A stretch of DNA of 32,531 bases from Ruminococcus sp. GTDB lineage: Bacteria; Bacillota; Clostridia; Oscillospirales; Acutalibacteraceae. The translations under genes and the position numbers were made by a program. Below the pieces are notes generated by a model. That model was not told where the DNA came from and searched no databases. It saw only the letters and a list, made by a program, of their open reading frames with translations. The stretch is taken from positions 1-32,531 of the forward strand of contig JAFQNJ010000007.1 of assembly GCA_017395925.1 (NCBI GenBank), in the 5' to 3' direction. This document shows positions 15,532-26,932 of this stretch, piece after piece (position 1 is the first letter of the stretch; every line of letters begins with the position of its first letter).

Positions 15532-16494
15532 TTATTTACCGATGGGATAGTCAACGTCCATTCCTGCAACGAATTTCTGAATTGCAGTTGCATCCTTAAC
15601 ATTCACCTTGGTGTCGGCATCAACATCTGCACAAGCCTCGCAGAGAGTAATCTCAAAGCCTGCGGCAAACTTCTGGATAGCGGTTGCATCCTTAACATTT
15701 ACCTTGCCGTCGCCGTCTGCATCGCCCAGAACACACTCATCGGGAGTTGTTTCATCAGGGGTTGTCTCGTCGGGAGTAGCCTCGTCGTCGGTGGAGGGCA
15801 GATACTCCTCAAGTGCTGCGAGGATCTCATAGAGCTCTTCCTCGGTGAACTGGAAATCAAAAATGAGCTTGTAGACAATCTCCTCGGGAGCCAGACCTGT
15901 CATCTTAACTGCATTCTCAAATCTGCCGTTAACTACAAAGTCAATGAAAAGGTCAACATCTGTCTTTCCCTCGGGAAGTGCTGTACCTACAACATTGCCG
16001 ATAGATGTAATCTGCTTAACGGGACCGTAAACTGCAGGGTCCTGATTCATCCAGAAAGCAGAGAGGCAAACCTTTGCGCTATCCTCGGGGTTCTCGTACA
16101 TAATATCGGTATCACAGTACATAGTGTCACCGAAGCATTCTGTTCCCATAAATGCATCGTAGGTCTGTGCGCCTGTATCGGCAGAGAAGATTACACAGTA
16201 GAGCTTGCCCTCTTCCATAGTACCTGCCTTGCTGATGTTGTAGGAATATACGTCCTCTGCATCAGTAGCGGTGCACTTTTCCTTCTTTGTCTGCCAAGCC
16301 GCAAACTCGTCACCCTCGTACTCCCAGATGTGACAGAAAATGCTCTTGTAGCCTGCCCACTCCTGGGGAACTGTGAAGTAAATCACGGGCTCCTCTGAAG
16401 GTGTGAATTCCTCTGCGGATACGCCCACAGCACAGGTTGCAAGGGCTAAAAGCATAACCAGTGCTACGGACAGAATTTTCTTAAAACTGTTCAT
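15532..16494 (-). CDS. Secreted protein with C-terminal type I dockerin
   Basis: A 320-residue exported protein. Signal peptide with cleavage likely after Ala27 (VSA-EE). Residues about 30-175 form an aromatic-rich beta-type module (IYFTVPQEWAGYKSIFCHIW) that is not a catalytic domain I know; it recalls starch-binding modules of ruminococcal amylosome proteins, with low certainty. Residues 180-235 look helical. A TPDE repeat linker (about 238-254) leads to a dockerin (about 257-315) with two copies of the calcium loop and helix: GDADGDGKVNVKDATAIQKF and DVDADTKVNVKDATAIQKF. The dockerin would dock the protein on a cohesin scaffold; no cohesin is in the window. ATG 16494 follows AGGAGG. Own promoter and terminator. 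Confidence 0.88.
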   Translation of the reverse strand: MNSFKKILSVALVMLLALATCAVGVSAEEFTPSEEPVIYFTVPQEWAGYKSIFCHIWEYEGDEFAAWQTKKEKCTATDAEDVYSYNISKAGTMEEGKLYCVIFSADTGAQTYDAFMGTECFGDTMYCDTDIMYENPEDSAKVCLSAFWMNQDPAVYGPVKQITSIGNVVGTALPEGKTDVDLFIDFVVNGRFENAVKMTGLAPEEIVYKLIFDFQFTEEELYEILAALEEYLPSTDDEATPDETTPDETTPDECVLGDADGDGKVNVKDATAIQKFAAGFEITLCEACADVDADTKVNVKDATAIQKFVAGMDVDYPIGK

Positions 16495-16602: not shown

Positions 16603-17256
16603 TTATTCACAGAGTGCCTTGAGGTTTTCTATTGCCGCTTTCGCATCCTCTGCCTTGAAGACCGAGGTACCTGCAACGCAGATATCAACGCCTGCTTCCT
16701 TGGCAAGACGGATATTACTCTCGCCGATGCCGCCATCGATTTCTATAAGGAAACCCTCAAGCCCCAGACGGTCTGCCTCTTCTCTGATAGATGTTACCTT
16801 GGGGAGCATATCCGCCATAAAGGACTGTCCGCCGAATCCCGGCTCCACGGACATTACAAGCACCATATCAAGGTCCTGAAGATAAGGGAAAACCGCCTCG
16901 GCAGGGGTTTTGGGCTTAATAACAAGTCCTACCTTGATGCCGTGGGACTTAACCTTGTCGATAGTCTCTTTGATGTCGCTCTGTGCCTCCACGTGGAAGG
17001 TGATGATATCCGCACCTGCCTCGGCAAAATCGTCAATATACTTAAGGGGCTCGGAAATCATCAGATGCACATCGAAGGGCTTGTCGCTATACTTTCTCAC
17101 CCATTTGATAACGGGTGCGCCAAAAGTGAGGTTAGGGACAAAGTGTCCGTCCATAATATCCAGATGCATATAGTCGGCACCTGCTTTGTCCATTCTTGCA
17201 ATCTCCTCGCCGAATCGGGAAAAATCGCAGGAAAGAAGGGATGGTGCTATAAACAT
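16603..17256 (-). CDS. rpe: Ribulose-phosphate 3-epimerase
   Basis: Pentose phosphate pathway enzyme that interconverts ribulose-5-phosphate and xylulose-5-phosphate. The 217-residue TIM barrel has the signature MHLDIMDGHFVPN with metal-binding His31 and Asp33, FDVHLMI, the MSVEPGFGGQSF loop, and the catalytic Asp in IEIDGGI. Length is normal. ATG 17256 follows GGAGATGATTTT. It is the last gene of a minus-strand run and starts 39 bases after the degenerate P-type-ATPase-like gene. Confidence 0.97.
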   Translation of the reverse strand: MFIAPSLLSCDFSRFGEEIARMDKAGADYMHLDIMDGHFVPNLTFGAPVIKWVRKYSDKPFDVHLMISEPLKYIDDFAEAGADIITFHVEAQSDIKETIDKVKSHGIKVGLVIKPKTPAEAVFPYLQDLDMVLVMSVEPGFGGQSFMADMLPKVTSIREEADRLGLEGFLIEIDGGIGESNIRLAKEAGVDICVAGTSVFKAEDAKAAIENLKALCE

Positions 17257-17295: not shown

Positions 17296-19860
17296 TCAGG
17301 GTTTCTGTATTGCAGGGGCAATAATTGCAGCCGCAGACCAGAAGAGTATGAATATCAGTACCTCAACACCCTTGAGTGCACCAACACCTGCACAGAGTGC
17401 CAGAGTTGCCGCCAAGAGTATTCCAAGAATAACTCCGATAAGCTGAATGACCACCGCCAGAGAAATATTGCTCTTGAGGCGGACACAGCCTGAAATTGCA
17501 CGGAGCAGAGAGAAGAAGGAACCCCTTGTGGCAAGGTATGCTCTGGAGGTATCCTCTTTCTGTGAGGTTATTTCGATGCAGACGTTTCCAAGTCCTGTGG
17601 GAAGCACCTTGACGCTTCTGAAGAAAATACCGAAGTCGTCGGCAATTTTCTCACCTGTTACGTTGCAGTCTGTAGTCTGCACAAGCAGACTCACACCGTT
17701 TGCCTCTGCCTGCTGAAGAAGCTGAGCAATGCGAAGGGTTGAGGCATAGGAAACCACAAACATAGCAACCAGCTCTCCCGAGCGGGCAAGATATGTAACT
17801 GTTCTGCCTTCAATTTTGTGCTTGTTTTCAAACTCCTCCTCGGGAGTGGTAATGGCGTATTTCTCCATAAGGGCACGGTTGCCCACAAGAATTCTCTCGC
17901 CCTTGACCCAACCTACAAGTCCCAGCTTGTCCTCGTAGAGAACGCTCTCAACCTTGGGAAGTGCAGAACCCTTTTCCTCAACAATTTTGTCGAAGATACA
18001 AGCCATGGGATTCTTGGCTTCAGTAAGCACCGCCGCCGCAGAAAGCATGGTATCCTCCACGCCGCGGTTTGTGAAGGCTTTCACTCCTTCCAGAGTGATG
18101 CTGTCCATGGGATAGAGGTCCCTTGCCTCGCAGATAACCGCCTTTGTGTCGCAGAACTGTCTCACCGAGGGATATCCGCTGAGCATTGCATTCTTCTGGA
18201 GAGTATCCTTGGAAAGCTTATAGAGAGGCAGATTAACTGCCAGCAAATCGCATACGGGGGTGGATACTGCAGTCATTAGAGCGAGTACCGAAAACGCACC
18301 CACCACATCTTTTGCCACAATACCGTAAAGCACCGACGCAAAGAGTGAGCATAAAAGCGTTACTGGTGCAAGTTTGCTTGCCATATCTTCCGAAGGGTCG
18401 GGGGAATATGAAAGTCTCAGGAAGTCCCCCATAAAGTCGGTCCTGTGCTGATATGCCACAATGGGCTTGTCCTGAGTGGTACCGCTTAAAAGCTTTCTTG
18501 CTATATCCTCGTTGGTATATATCTTTCCTGCGTAGAGAGGAGCCTTCTGGGACACGAACTTGAAGTTCTCCTTGACACGCATTACCATAAAGAGCTTACC
18601 CAAGGAGTTCAGCAGAAGGGCAACTATTGCTATGGTTGAATAAAGATGATATGCACCTGAATAGAACTTTGTGGGGAAAATCAGAGAAACAATTCCCTGC
18701 ACCACCGCCGCCGCGGCACAGATTGCCGCGCCTGTGTCGGAATTTCCTTTGAATCTCTTGAGAGCAGTTAAACCGTTTATCAGCGTAACTCTGTTTACCC
18801 AGCAAGAAGCACCCAAAAGCCCCAAACTCACAAGAGAGAGAACAACCGATGCCACCACGCTCTGGGATATTGCCTCTGATACAATTCTGCAAACCACAGA
18901 GAGAATCAGGGAAATCACTCCGAATGCTCCTGTGTAGATACTGTTCACGAACATCTTGCGGATATTTGCATTAACCTCGGTCATAATTGACTTGGCATCC
19001 TGATGGGAGCGATAGTCCTCTATCTGTATGGTCTTTTCCTTGAAATCGTTTTCCGAATCCTCCTCCGGCGATGAGAAGAAGCCCACGACTTTGCTCATAA
19101 CGTTGCCTGCAATTTTCTTTGCGGAGGGTTTGCCTTCTTCTGCCTCGGGGGACATCTCTGCTTCCTTGGTAATGGTCTGAGAGATTACAGGATTGGGAGA
19201 AGCCAGATATTTCTTGTATTCATTCTCCACTACCGCAGAAAACTTACCTGCACGGACGTGGACCTTGTCCACCTTGCTCTCATGCTGATATACAGGCACT
19301 CTGGACACAACGGTCTGAGCAGCACTCACAGGCTTAGGCTTACCGAAAAGTCTCTCAAAACTGCTGAGCTCTCCGCCCTCAACTTCCTTTGGCATGGGGG
19401 GGTTCTTCTTGATATCCGCCGAGGGGATTTCGCTCTTTTCTTCCTCGGATTTTTCATCATCCAAGGAGATATCAATGGTATCAACGTCCTGCAGATTAAT
19501 GGAGCGGACATTGAGGCTGTCCACGTCGTCAATAATCTCATCGCTGACAGTGGTGTTCTCGTCGTATGTAGGCTTCAGTGTTACCAGAGTTTCCTCCTCA
19601 GCCTCTTTGGGTGTCTCGGTGCCCTCTATCTTCTCAATGTCGATATCATCAGGGTCCGCCTCCAGAGGATTCTGGCTTTTGAGTCTGACTTCCTTACTTT
19701 TGTTGCTGAAAATCTCTTCCATGCGGGGAGGCTTACTCATCTTGGCAGCTTCCTTTGCCATTTTCTCCTGTTCAGACAGGAATCGGGTTTCTTCAATAAT
19801 GGAGTCTATGGTAATATCCTTCTTGTCACGGGAGGGTTTTTCTTTTTTATTTTTGCCCAT
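17296..19860 (-). CDS. Large membrane protein: degenerate P-type-ATPase-like protein with acidic cytoplasmic N-terminus
   Basis: An 854-residue protein. Residues 1-300 are hydrophilic, acidic and probably disordered (EAEEE and DDEKSEEEKSE tracts). About eight membrane segments follow, at roughly 306-327, 334-356, 378-396, 404-424, 496-515, 517-545, 797-822 and 826-850. The part between 545 and 795 reads like the P and N domains of a P1B-type ATPase: VSTPVCDLLAVNLPLYKLS matches the membrane CPx segment, LVGWVKGERILVGNRALMEKY matches the nucleotide-binding loop, and GRTVTYLARSGELVAMFVV plus GEKIADDFGI match the domain core. But DKTGT is DTKAV (571-575; codons from 18150 down), the hinge TGDN is TTDCN (729-733), no TGES and no GDGxND are visible. 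So it is probably not an ion pump. It lies 12 bases after rlmB. ATG 19860 follows AAGGAAG. Confidence 0.7.
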   Translation of the reverse strand: MGKNKKEKPSRDKKDITIDSIIEETRFLSEQEKMAKEAAKMSKPPRMEEIFSNKSKEVRLKSQNPLEADPDDIDIEKIEGTETPKEAEEETLVTLKPTYDENTTVSDEIIDDVDSLNVRSINLQDVDTIDISLDDEKSEEEKSEIPSADIKKNPPMPKEVEGGELSSFERLFGKPKPVSAAQTVVSRVPVYQHESKVDKVHVRAGKFSAVVENEYKKYLASPNPVISQTITKEAEMSPEAEEGKPSAKKIAGNVMSKVVGFFSSPEEDSENDFKEKTIQIEDYRSHQDAKSIMTEVNANIRKMFVNSIYTGAFGVISLILSVVCRIVSEAISQSVVASVVLSLVSLGLLGASCWVNRVTLINGLTALKRFKGNSDTGAAICAAAAVVQGIVSLIFPTKFYSGAYHLYSTIAIVALLLNSLGKLFMVMRVKENFKFVSQKAPLYAGKIYTNEDIARKLLSGTTQDKPIVAYQHRTDFMGDFLRLSYSPDPSEDMASKLAPVTLLCSLFASVLYGIVAKDVVGAFSVLALMTAVSTPVCDLLAVNLPLYKLSKDTLQKNAMLSGYPSVRQFCDTKAVICEARDLYPMDSITLEGVKAFTNRGVEDTMLSAAAVLTEAKNPMACIFDKIVEEKGSALPKVESVLYEDKLGLVGWVKGERILVGNRALMEKYAITTPEEEFENKHKIEGRTVTYLARSGELVAMFVVSYASTLRIAQLLQQAEANGVSLLVQTTDCNVTGEKIADDFGIFFRSVKVLPTGLGNVCIEITSQKEDTSRAYLATRGSFFSLLRAISGCVRLKSNISLAVVIQLIGVILGILLAATLALCAGVGALKGVEVLIFILFWSAAAIIAPAIQKP

Positions 19861-19872
19861 AAATGCACTTCC

Positions 19873-20643
19873 TTATCTTCCGTCACTTGCGCGGTACATC
19901 AATATACCCGCCGCAACGGATGCGTTAAGAGAATTGATTTTTCCTTTCATCGGCAGAGAAACAATAACGTCGCATTTTTCTCTGACAAGTCTGCCGATAC
20001 CCTTGCCCTCGTTGCCGATGACCAGCGCCACCGCTCCTGAAAAATCGCATTTGCGATAGTCCTCGCCGTCCATATCGGCACCGAACACCCACAGACCTTT
20101 CTCCTTGAGCGTGTCAATAACGGAGGGGATATTGGGCACTCGCACCACAGGCACGTACTCAACGGCACCTGCAGAGGATTTTCCAACTGTGAAGCTGAGC
20201 CCTGCGCTTCGGCGGTTTGGGATAATAACACCGTGAGCACCTGCGCACTCTGCGGTACGGATAATAGCACCCAGATTATGAGGGTCTTCTATCTCGTCAA
20301 GAACGATTACGAAGGGAGCCTCTCCGCGGCTCTCGGCAAGTTCAAAGATATCAGAGAGCTCTTTATAGTCACACACAGCCGCCACCGCCGCAATGCCCTG
20401 ATGATGACCGCCTTTGCACATATAGTCCAGTTTCTTGGAGTCAACCTCTTTGACTCTGAGATTTTTCTCCTTTGCCTTGGCAAGAATTCCTACAATTGCA
20501 CCGGTCTTGGCACCCTTTGCCACAAGGACGGAATCTATGGCTCTGCCGCTTCTTATCGCTTCGCTGACGGGATTTCTGCCGAAGATGATTTCATCTGAGC
20601 GACCTTCTCCCTGATTAACATTTTTTCTGCTGTTATCCTGCAT
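19873..20643 (-). CDS. rlmB: 23S rRNA (guanosine-2'-O)-methyltransferase RlmB family (SPOUT/TrmH)
   Basis: SPOUT-class RNA 2'-O-methyltransferase that uses SAM. The 256-residue protein has the substrate-binding N-terminal domain (IIFGRNPVSEAIRSGRAID) and the three knotted motifs: NLGAIIRTAECAGAHGVI, VIGNEGKGI, and SLPMKGKINSLNASVAAGI. The length fits RlmB. I chose ATG 20643, preceded by AAAAGGAACGATAAT; a longer in-frame reading from 20793 adds about 50 residues that do not belong to the family and overlap the upstream gene. An extended -10 (TTGTGATACAAT on the minus strand, 20693-20682) may start a transcript here. The exact rRNA target is inferred from the family. Confidence 0.93.
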   Translation of the reverse strand: MQDNSRKNVNQGEGRSDEIIFGRNPVSEAIRSGRAIDSVLVAKGAKTGAIVGILAKAKEKNLRVKEVDSKKLDYMCKGGHHQGIAAVAAVCDYKELSDIFELAESRGEAPFVIVLDEIEDPHNLGAIIRTAECAGAHGVIIPNRRSAGLSFTVGKSSAGAVEYVPVVRVPNIPSVIDTLKEKGLWVFGADMDGEDYRKCDFSGAVALVIGNEGKGIGRLVREKCDVIVSLPMKGKINSLNASVAAGILMYRASDGR

Positions 20644-20681
20644 ATTATCGTTCCTTTTCGCAAAATACTTATACATATTAA

Positions 20682-20693
20682 ATTGTATCACAA
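20682..20693 (-). promoter_or_regulatory. Extended -10 promoter before rlmB
   Basis: Minus strand TTGTGATACAAT, with TGA before TACAAT, about 40 bases before the rlmB ATG. No clear -35 at 17 bases. Confidence 0.4.
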
Positions 20694-20749
20694 AACACGC
20701 CGTTTGAGAATAGCAAATAACAAAAAAATAAGGGCGATGCGGAACTTTT

Positions 20750-21340
20750 TTATCGTACAAAATCACACTTTTCACAAAGCACACGAAAGGCACCGTCCAG
20801 CTCTCCCGCTTTCACCCCAAAGCCTCCCGTCACATTGTCCCTGAAAAGGAAAATCTTGGGCGGATAATAGCTGAAACACAGTATCATTATAAAAATCAGT
20901 ACCAGCATCATCACCGCAACAGGAAAGTAACTGCTGAGTTTTACCGAGCTTTGTGTCAGTTTCATCGACAGCATCTGCGAAAGTACCACGAATATAAAAG
21001 ATGCACCGATATCAAGCACCAAATACGCTCTCTTTGTAAAAAATGTGTAGGTGTAGAAAAATATAGTTATAGAAATAAGCAGAAAGCACACACCCAGAGT
21101 TTTCGCCACCACGAACTGCCTCATAGGCGGATTTGCCCACAAAAGCTCCACCGCACCCCAGATAAGATATGCCTGTGCAAATATTTTCAGATGCTCCCAT
21201 ACACTCTCATTAACTGCCCCCACAAGTGCACCCAGAACACTCCTGCCGCTCCACTCATAAATGCCGTGAAGGAAGGACGCCATAAGAAATACAACAGGTA
21301 TACCCCACAGTTCCAAAGTCCTAAAAAGTTTTTTGTTCAC
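20750..21340 (-). CDS. Polytopic membrane protein, DUF6512-like
   Basis: A 196-residue protein with about six membrane helices and no known activity. The conserved part is near the N-terminus: FLHGIYEWSGRSVLGALVGA followed by VNESVWEHLKIFAQAYLIW. I connect this pattern with the family of unknown function DUF6512, from memory. A short soluble tail (GVKAGELDGAFRVL) closes the protein. The start is GTG 21340; its GGAGG (21353-21349) is part of the 3' arm of the hairpin at 21350-21383 and six T residues lie between SD and start. Confidence 0.7.
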   Translation of the reverse strand: MNKKLFRTLELWGIPVVFLMASFLHGIYEWSGRSVLGALVGAVNESVWEHLKIFAQAYLIWGAVELLWANPPMRQFVVAKTLGVCFLLISITIFFYTYTFFTKRAYLVLDIGASFIFVVLSQMLSMKLTQSSVKLSSYFPVAVMMLVLIFIMILCFSYYPPKIFLFRDNVTGGFGVKAGELDGAFRVLCEKCDFVR

Positions 21341-25417: not shown

Positions 25418-25645
25418 TATCTAAACCTCTTGCTATAATATAGTTGTTCACTTTAATTTTATTACCATACTATAATACAATATAGTTACGAAAAAATAAA
25501 GTGAATTACCAAAAATTTCTTATGGTAAAACTCCCAAACTTGCATTTTTCTCTTTGGCTTTTTTTAGCCTCAATGTTCAAAGAGGTGCAATTTTTCACCA
25601 CTCAGGGAGATGTTTTGCACAATTAACTCAAGGAGATTAACAACA

Positions 25646-26932
25646 ATGAAAAAGCTAAACCTCAACAAAGCCCTCTGTATCGGACTTTGTTCTGTTACGA
25701 TTGCAGGCGCTCTCTGCGGCTGTAACACTGACTCTGTACTGTCAAAAAAAGAGAATCTTCTCTCGGGATACGAGCGCTCTTCCTCCATAGTCACATATGA
25801 CTTTACATCGGGCACTACGGCTCCGCCCGAAAACTATGATGCATATTCTGCCGCTGTGACAGAATTTTCCATAGAACTCCTGAAAAACTCTATGAAATCA
25901 AATGAAAACTCTCTCGTCGCTCCCCATAGCACCGCTACCACACTGTCGCTGATTTTAAACGGTGCATCCTCATCAACAGGAACAGAAATCAAAAACATAC
26001 TTGCCCCTACCCTGGATACACAGAGCATCAACAACTGCAACTTCTATCTCACCAGCCGACTCTCAACATTCAACACCGACACAAACGGTTATTTCAGCGA
26101 AAACTCCCTGTGGTTCGAGGACAAGTTCGATGTTAAAACAATGTATCTCCAAACTGTGGCTAACTACTACAATGCTCATATGGCGCGAACAGCCCTCTCG
26201 GACATTGATACCATAGATAAAATAAACAACGTTACCCACCACTCCACCAACGGAGTTATAGAGAGTATCATCTCCTCTGTTCCCGAAAATGCCACTGCTG
26301 TTTCCATAACCGCCTCTGCCCTTACCGATAACTGGCTGAACCCCTACACCACAGACCGCGTAAAGGAAGGCACCTTCCGCGGTACACAAAAAGATTCAAC
26401 CGCTACCTTTATGACCTCAAACGAGCGATACATAAGCGAAAGCTACGCCACAGGCTTCATCAAGAGCCTGAAGGATACCCCCATAAAATTTGCGGCAATT
26501 ATGCCCACAGAAGATATGAGCCTTGAGGAATTCGCCGAAACCCTCACCGCAAACCGTCTGCGTGCCATCTTGCTGGAAAGCAAAGCAACAAGCTTCTGCA
26601 CAGCGACCATCCCCTGCTTTGACGCGGAGACATACACCTCTCTGGATGAAACCTTGAAAAACATGGGTATAAATAAAGCCTACAACGCAAAAGAGGCAAA
26701 CTTCTCAGGAATATCTTCCTCCTCCGAGGTGCATCTCAGCACCGCACTTCTGGGTGCACAGGTAAGCCTCAGCCCCAACGGCACAACCAAGAGCGAAGCC
26801 TCCGCCCCCATTGGTGCCGCAGAATTCGAAGAATGTGATACCCGCCTCACCTTCGACCGCCCCTTCATTTACATCTTCTTCGACAACGAATCAGGCATCC
26901 CCGTGCTTATGGGATGCGTAAACAACCTGTAA
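25646..26932 (+). CDS. Serpin (serine protease inhibitor family), lipoprotein
   Basis: A 428-residue serpin with a bacterial lipoprotein signal (residues 1-26, lipobox LCGC, Cys26), so it would sit on the outer face of the membrane. The serpin fold is shown by LVAPHSTATTLSLILNGASS near the start, the shutter-region strands, FAAIMPTE, and the C-terminal FDRPFIYIFFDNESGIPVLMG, which matches the serpin signature. Inhibitory serpins trap proteases by inserting the reactive loop. Here the hinge reads NGTTKSEASAPIG, with Lys, Glu and Pro where small residues are usual, and P1 falls near Glu-Phe. So inhibition is likely but not certain. ATG 25646 follows AGGAG; a longer reading from 25610 has no site. 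Confidence 0.92.
   Translation: MKKLNLNKALCIGLCSVTIAGALCGCNTDSVLSKKENLLSGYERSSSIVTYDFTSGTTAPPENYDAYSAAVTEFSIELLKNSMKSNENSLVAPHSTATTLSLILNGASSSTGTEIKNILAPTLDTQSINNCNFYLTSRLSTFNTDTNGYFSENSLWFEDKFDVKTMYLQTVANYYNAHMARTALSDIDTIDKINNVTHHSTNGVIESIISSVPENATAVSITASALTDNWLNPYTTDRVKEGTFRGTQKDSTATFMTSNERYISESYATGFIKSLKDTPIKFAAIMPTEDMSLEEFAETLTANRLRAILLESKATSFCTATIPCFDAETYTSLDETLKNMGINKAYNAKEANFSGISSSSEVHLSTALLGAQVSLSPNGTTKSEASAPIGAAEFEECDTRLTFDRPFIYIFFDNESGIPVLMGCVNNL

Follow-up and report, generated by a model that had tools for sequence, protein, structure and literature searches.

A predicted membrane protein descended from P1B-type ATPases, without their catalytic motifs, is encoded next to rlmB in an order of gut bacteria

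Introduction

Why would a bacterium keep a P-type ATPase that has lost the residues with which such proteins pump? The question is raised by a gene of Ruminococcus sp. (NCBI GenBank assembly GCA_017395925.1, contig JAFQNJ010000007.1) that lies between rlmB and rpe in the stretch of DNA analyzed here (positions 1 to 32,531, a length of 32,531 nt, hereafter the window). Pseudo-kinases and pseudo-phosphatases are well known; for a stand-alone bacterial pseudo-P-type ATPase, no description was found in the open-access literature. A preliminary description, made from the sequence of the window, had regarded the product as a P1B-like protein without catalytic motifs, and had suggested by inference that it serves, without pumping, as a sensor, as a scaffold or in the envelope. 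In this work, the descent, retention, genomic context and possible role of this protein, which we call the pseudo-ATPase, were analyzed.

Materials and Methods

The family search yielded 86 ORFs in 84 sources, 57 of which were aligned; duplicates, second pieces and same-genus copies were left out. Two of the 57 rows (L044 and L058) represent part of the protein, since two ORFs share the gene at each of these loci and the pieces were kept separate. Motifs were counted in these 57 homologues (56 at some columns) and compared with 14 intact CopA-type proteins used as controls, of which ten belong to the order and four to other parts of the class.

Results

The gene, its neighbors and the layout of its product

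The ORF of the pseudo-ATPase runs on the minus strand from an ATG at 19860 to a stop ending at 17296, its 854 codons being fully open as previously described (Table 1). Twelve bases separate it from the end of rlmB, whose stop codon falls inside the Shine-Dalgarno-like AAGGAAGTG of the pseudo-ATPase, so that translation of both genes is probably coupled. The true start of rlmB is probably internal to its ORF, since the TIGR00186 match begins at residue 68. On the other side, rpe begins 39 bases downstream of the pseudo-ATPase with its own AGGAG. Both flanking genes had been correctly named beforehand, the two NCBIfam matches being over their cut-offs. Genes for SpoVAD, PAP2 and VanW are also found near the pseudo-ATPase within the window.

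Three other genes of the window were recorded. A DUF6512 protein (20750-21340, minus strand) is encoded upstream of rlmB, and look-alikes, recognized by eye, occupy the corresponding position at further loci of the genus. The gene behind rpe (15532-16494, minus strand) encodes a dockerin type I domain in a product that looks secreted, which clusters with similar ORFs from a total of eight sources, itself included. A serpin of this gut bacterium (25610-26932, plus strand; PF00079, E 1.2e-54) has, by eye, a lipoprotein-like start.

By prediction, the pseudo-ATPase is integral to the membrane, and the pattern of its helices resembles the P1B plan with eight helices. Its M1 reads N-S-D-T where the CopA controls mostly present N-M-D-[TS].

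Table 1. Position of the pseudo-ATPase gene, its parts and its two flanking genes in the window.
Feature	Position	Strand	Basis or remark
Pseudo-P1B-ATPase gene	17296..19860	-	854 aa; ORF with NCBIfam, 3rfu and profile matches
N-terminal tail, residues 1-295, net acidic	18976..19860	-	Composition
Candidate weak tail motif ITIDSIIEET, residues 16-25	19786..19815	-	Not significant, p 0.2
Membrane helices matching MA, MB, M1, M2, residues about 305-430	18571..18948	-	Profile alignment
A (actuator) region remnant, residues 431-494	18379..18570	-	About 50 residues with TGES absent
M3-M4, residues 495-549	18214..18378	-	T534-P535-V536 in place of CPC
Glu578 codon, aligned with the phosphorylated Asp	18127..18129	-	EARDLYP in place of DKTGTLT
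N (nucleotide-binding-like) domain, residues 601-690	17791..18060	-	AKNP for SEHP, KLG647 for GxG
P-like domain, second half, residues 691-790	17491..17790	-	D731 retained, no motif-III Lys, GDGxND deleted
M5-M6, residues 791-854	17299..17490	-	YN and MSxSS replaced; W841 conserved instead
Shine-Dalgarno-like AAGGAAGTG	19866..19874	-	Overlaps the rlmB stop codon
rlmB, 23S rRNA G2251 2'-O-methyltransferase	19873..20793	-	TIGR00186, 245 bits, cut-off 160
rpe, ribulose-phosphate 3-epimerase	16603..17256	-	TIGR01163, 273 bits, cut-off 213

Descent from CopA-type pumps

The NCBIfam CopA model (PRK10671) matched residues 593-762 of the window protein (E 2.9e-13) and the heavy-metal family TIGR01525 matched with E 1.4e-8, both far under their cut-offs, and the Legionella protein LpCopA (3rfu) gave E 4.5e-11. 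At E 0.001, 26 of 36 diverse members of the family were matched by the CopA model and 22 of the 36 by TIGR01525. When a profile of these 36 members was compared with the PDB at the same threshold, all 53 distinct sequences retrieved (53/53) were named P-type ATPases, the top match being 3rfu (E 3.9e-37, profile positions 440-715). The alignment of the family profile with the 14 CopA controls (hhalign in global mode, with 55 of the 57 family rows entering the profile) reached a probability of 100% and an E value of 5.9e-57 over 637 aligned columns, with 16% identity. It paired the Pro of CPC (P397 in the controls) with P535 of the window protein and the Asp of DKTGT (D440) with E578, without any gap between them. 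The hhalign result and the 53 PDB sequences together place the family, by the sequence profile of its M3-M4-P-N core, among P-type ATPases by descent, and the P1B ancestry that had been proposed was thus borne out by the CopA model, by 3rfu and by the profile-profile comparison.

No Pfam match was obtained for the window protein at E up to 1, nor for ten diverse homologues at 0.01. PADLOC, run on three members, returned 0 defense families, and membership of a defense system was rejected on this basis. Taken at the level of sequence, the family is one of P1B-type ATPase descendants that lack the catalytic motifs and, in the 11 members tested, match no Pfam model.

Lost, kept and new motifs

DKTGT, CPC, TGE and GDG[IV]ND were present in the aligned columns of all 14 controls. 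DKTG, TGES and GDGxND each appeared in 0 of the 57 homologues, and the places of TGES and GDGxN are alignment gaps in the window protein. The counterpart of DKTGT is E578-A-R-D-L582; the preliminary description had chosen DTKAV (D571-V575), a string that was rejected by the alignment to CopA as lying seven residues upstream. At the old phosphorylated position, Glu is found in the window protein and Asp in 19/57 homologues; the first Thr of DKTGT is kept in 5/57, and 0/57 retain the Lys, the Gly or either of the later Thr residues. The string DKT does occur somewhere in 12/57 homologues, the Lys being at the aligned site in none (0/57). Homologues with an intact DKTGT, which had been named beforehand as the sign of a recent single loss, amounted to 0/57, and the loss of catalytic motifs was confirmed.

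The remaining contacts were affected to variable extents. In the CPC columns the first Cys persists in 2/57 homologues and the second in none (0/57), and the Pro is kept in 48/57. The His of SEHP is kept in 0/57. The first Gly of the N-domain GxG was found in 15/56 and the second (G647) in 56/57; the motif-III Lys remains in 1/56 and the motif-II Thr in 43/56. Of the M5 YN pair, the Tyr is left in 1/56 and the Asn in 0/56 (G809-V810 in the window protein), and the M6 MSxSS (MxxSS) is replaced (I838..W841-S842 in the window protein). TGDN, formerly read here as TTDCN, aligns with T729-T-D-C732. D731 (55/56), N733 (51/56) and W841 (54/56) are nearly invariant, and the Asp of the M1 NxDT element is present in 33/56. 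In place of GTLT a new motif, [DE][LIV][FY]P, has appeared (D/E in 52/57, F/Y in 54/57, and Pro in 48/57).

None of the enzymatic hallmarks of the P-type ATPase superfamily (an Asp within DKTGT, TGE(S), and GDGxND) was found, and the set that marks P1B-1 copper pumps (CPC, YN, and MxxSS, with the SEHP and GxG contacts) was not found either. The loss of the Cys pair of CPC, of YN and of MSxSS leaves no known P1B metal site. To judge from its residues, the window protein, being without the acceptor Asp, the TGE loop, the hinge, the SEHP contacts and any known metal site, is not expected to go through the P-type cycle.

Spread of the family and selection

With the window protein as query, relatives were found in 91 of 98 genomes, comprising the window's own, 57/59 others of the genus and 33/38 other genomes of the order. 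With the family profile and a threshold of E 1e-50, matches were obtained in 137 of the order's 147 genomes. Among 291 genomes sampled from the class, the 12 members of the order were matched at E 1e-105 or better, and the best match in the 279 genomes from outside the order (E 9.9e-39) corresponded to an intact CopA. Outside the order, the matches listed for this sample covered about profile positions 440-720, and the four loci that were read all encoded intact CopA-type proteins. In a phylum sample of 299 genomes, the window's genome and two other members of the order passed E 1e-45, and 0 of the 296 other genomes did so. The order that carries the family is probably the GTDB Oscillospirales.

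Values of dN/dS ranged from 0.055 to 0.221 in 29 of 32 pair-by-region comparisons (eight pairs, four regions), the other three having an infinite dS and many dS values being near saturation; on average, the lowest values were those of the P/N part (0.055-0.108). These values support purifying selection on the pseudo-ATPase and, together with its presence in 137/147 genomes of the order, agree with the earlier statement that the gene is under selection and not decaying. Decay or a recent loss of function would account for the absence of all catalytic motifs and for the internal stops in the matches of three of the 137 genomes (one TGA in G081, one TAA in G401, and two stops in G428). However, the match is free of stops in 134/137 genomes, dN/dS is low and the family is as old as the order, so that this explanation is extremely improbable and was rejected for the whole family. 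The match runs into the end of rlmB in two of the three genomes, by 29 bases in G401 and by 2 in G428, and their stops may therefore precede the true start of the gene. In G081 the gene appears as two abutting ORFs of 363 and 430 aa that meet close to where the M2 region ends (L044:4164-6560, contig 38). The split could come from a sequencing error or a genuine stop, or the protein may be made in two parts.

Linkage to rlmB

The rlmB gene was found in 137/147 genomes of the order and was located directly upstream of the pseudo-ATPase, on the same strand and contig, in 128 of the 135 genomes with both genes. Many of the assemblies are fragmented. In six of the seven unlinked cases (G391, G397, G407, G439, G464, and G477, the last assigned from the first of its two contigs) rlmB is at a contig end on the expected side; the tail of the pseudo-ATPase follows rlmB up to the contig end in G397 and G477, and in G407 rlmB is followed by the tail motif. 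Four other genomes (G063, G085, G431, and G452) presented one gene of the pair only, near a contig end, and in G085 the tail of the pseudo-ATPase was seen after rlmB. The only clear relocation occurred in G060, where the pseudo-ATPase lies behind obgE, with an L21 gene further upstream (L118:541-4281, contig 17), and rlmB is on another contig with an opposite-strand gene behind it.

Both genes were absent together from 8/147 genomes, each being missing from 10/147. As proof of coupling this joint absence was weakened, since the pair lies within one locus of about 4 kb, where one deletion or one assembly gap may remove both, and assembly gaps could produce 10 losses per gene; for this reason, only the genus g224 was retained as a case. 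Both genes were found in three of its six genomes and neither was above threshold in the other three (95, 97, and 64% complete), which may represent one deletion.

Pairwise distances of RlmB and the pseudo-ATPase were correlated (r 0.90, 56 loci, Mantel p 0.0005), also outside the genus (r 0.69, 528 pairs). The pseudo-ATPase evolves faster than RlmB (median identity of 18% vs. 48%).

Other neighbors

Neighbors other than rlmB change across the order. Whether the gene order rlmB-pseudo-ATPase-rpe is conserved had been named beforehand as a point to check; its rlmB half holds across the order, whereas rpe is the direct downstream neighbor only in loci of the window's genus and was rejected as part of the unit. 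Outside the genus, the most frequent downstream neighbor was a gene for EF-G, surveyed in 37 of the 147 genomes, picked so that 24 of the 26 family labels (f1-f26) were represented. It lies directly downstream, on the same strand and 101-445 bases behind the pseudo-ATPase, in 10/37 genomes from seven families, and was not found in this position in 27/37, a count that may include pseudo-ATPase genes at contig ends. Each of the ten genomes has two EF-G matches. The two downstream EF-Gs that were scanned scored under the cut-off of TIGR00484, the canonical model, and over that of NF009381, so that they look like a paralogue. Other neighbors have no relation to the ribosome (Lon, metK, dapB, an isocitrate-dehydrogenase-like gene, and a gene with a SpoIID domain that follows the pseudo-ATPase in L061 and has a cluster mate behind the pseudo-ATPase of L063). 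No pump gene was recognized beside the pseudo-ATPase, most neighbors being without annotation.

The N-terminal tail

The tail of the window protein contains 65 D/E vs. 45 K/R and, judging from composition only, is presumably disordered. The approximately 300 acidic residues of the preliminary description are thus a net acidic tail, but one of mixed charge. Among 56 aligned homologues, the length before the core varied from 16 to 508 aa (median about 310) and acidic residues outnumbered basic ones in 44. Two f10 homologues of 544-545 aa (L055 and L066) have almost no tail (16 aa) and start nearly at the membrane part.

Near the start of the tail, many lineages of the order share the motif FS[LI][DE][DE]ILxE[FV], which looks like a docking motif. 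With seed strings hand-picked from the same set, it scored p<0.01 in 18/33 homologues outside the genus, by leave-one-out scoring that also dropped hand-named close relatives, and the full matrix found it in 5/24 inside the window's genus; its candidacy as a universal feature was weakened by these counts. The regular expression of the motif matched 20/57 homologues. A DNA pattern of the motif core gave 19 matches in 18 of the 147 genomes, 16 of the 19 being at the tail of a pseudo-ATPase by coordinates, and the reversed pattern, used as control, gave 0 matches in the 147 genomes. Of the three other matches, one was in an ABC-2 type permease, at the opening of its N-terminal tail, and another was, by eye, inside a kinase-like protein. 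The permease (PF01061; L133:427-1749, minus strand, contig 1 of G446) opens with KFSIDDILAE, followed by a long low-complexity stretch, and this string is possibly a docking motif shared by membrane proteins of the order.

Discussion

The pseudo-ATPase shares with CopA-type P1B-1 pumps (LpCopA 3rfu; PRK10671) the order MA-MB-M1-M2-A-M3-M4-P-N-P-M5-M6, the spacing from the CPC Pro to the catalytic position, the GxxG...GNxxLM pattern of the N domain, and the T-x-D of TGDN. It differs from them in being without TGES, GDGxND, CPC, the SEHP His, DKTG and, in all but one of 56 homologues, the motif-III Lys, and in adding a long variable tail and the new P-domain motif. A degenerate P4-ATPase domain in which most signature residues are not identifiable is reported to be part of a working protein, the apicomplexan guanylate cyclase beta (PMC6592433). 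Retention of a degenerate P-type ATPase domain is common to both proteins, whereas that of the cyclase is eukaryotic, of the P4 type and fused to a cyclase (PMC6592433). RlmB (TIGR00186), a soluble enzyme unlike the pseudo-ATPase and not expected to be related to it in sequence, is a partner at the genome level only.

The constraint on the P/N body, the membrane anchor, a tail suited to binding and the identity of the partners (rlmB almost everywhere, EF-G in several lineages, and obgE at the relocation) led us to favor a non-pumping membrane scaffold or sensor that would link the membrane with translation or with maturation of the large subunit, a reading that we hold tentatively and at somewhat less than an even chance. 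The membrane part would anchor a platform, and the remodeled P/N domain would bind a ligand or a partner. Soluble partners would be recruited by the long tail, which in many lineages has a short docking motif; the platform might keep ribosomes or their maturation factors at the membrane, or report the state of the membrane to them. A narrower proposal, in which the former copper pump is a dock that holds RlmB, the EF-G paralogue or the nascent 50S and is made in step with RlmB, is speculative and rather unlikely. Several observations weigh against a ribosomal role. Linkage to rlmB may be operon inheritance without functional contact, no EF-G gene was found directly behind the pseudo-ATPase in most of the genomes surveyed, and Lon, metK and the other variable neighbors have nothing to do with ribosomes. 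In addition, the window's genus shows the tail motif weakly, the two f10 homologues are almost tailless, many dS values are near saturation, and the occurrence of the motif on an ABC-2 permease suggests one that serves membrane proteins in general, not the ribosome.

This last observation leads to the main competitor, a scaffold of the envelope or of cell division, in which the tail motif would dock to a cytosolic envelope scaffold and the rlmB link would be an old operon. The predicted membrane location, the permease tail opened by FSIDDILAE in G446, the SpoIID-domain gene in L061 and its cluster mate in L063, and SpoVAD, PAP2 and VanW in the window all fit such a role; against it, the pairing with rlmB is kept while other neighbors change, and the sole relocated copy, that of G060, sits behind obgE. 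Gene neighborhood appears to favor ribosome maturation or translation somewhat more than the envelope, and we consider the envelope scaffold unlikely. The P1B-like helices, the M1 Asp, the CPC Pro and the almost invariant G647, D731, N733 and W841 would also suit a ligand or metal sensor, or a passive permease, whose membrane part binds a small ligand while the P/N part relays a signal without ATP; with every known P1B metal site gone, however, this is distinctly unlikely. Intact CopA-type proteins do exist in relatives (ten loci of the order were read), and the pseudo-ATPase could be a regulatory pseudo-subunit of CopA or of another intact P-type ATPase, but the mostly unannotated neighborhood offers no recognizable pump gene, and we give this very little credence. 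A residual HAD enzyme of the phosphatase-like kind, whose P domain would use a DxD/E motif formed anew, might be read from the Asp at the old catalytic position in a third of the homologues, an Asp right after that position in 27/57, the D/E two positions further on in 52/57, and the frequent motif-II Thr; nevertheless, Ala follows the old catalytic position in 23/57, including the window protein and most of its genus, the motif-III Lys is nearly always lost and the GDGxN stretch is deleted, which makes this reading highly improbable.

Taken together, the sequences suggest that an old transporter has been turned into something else and kept across an order of gut bacteria. If the link to rlmB is functional, a membrane protein would be tied to ribosome maturation; and if the dock at the membrane is real, an order of gut bacteria would finish its ribosomes, or translate, partly on a former transporter. 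Whatever its role, the family is a large natural alignment of what a P-type ATPase keeps after pumping ends.
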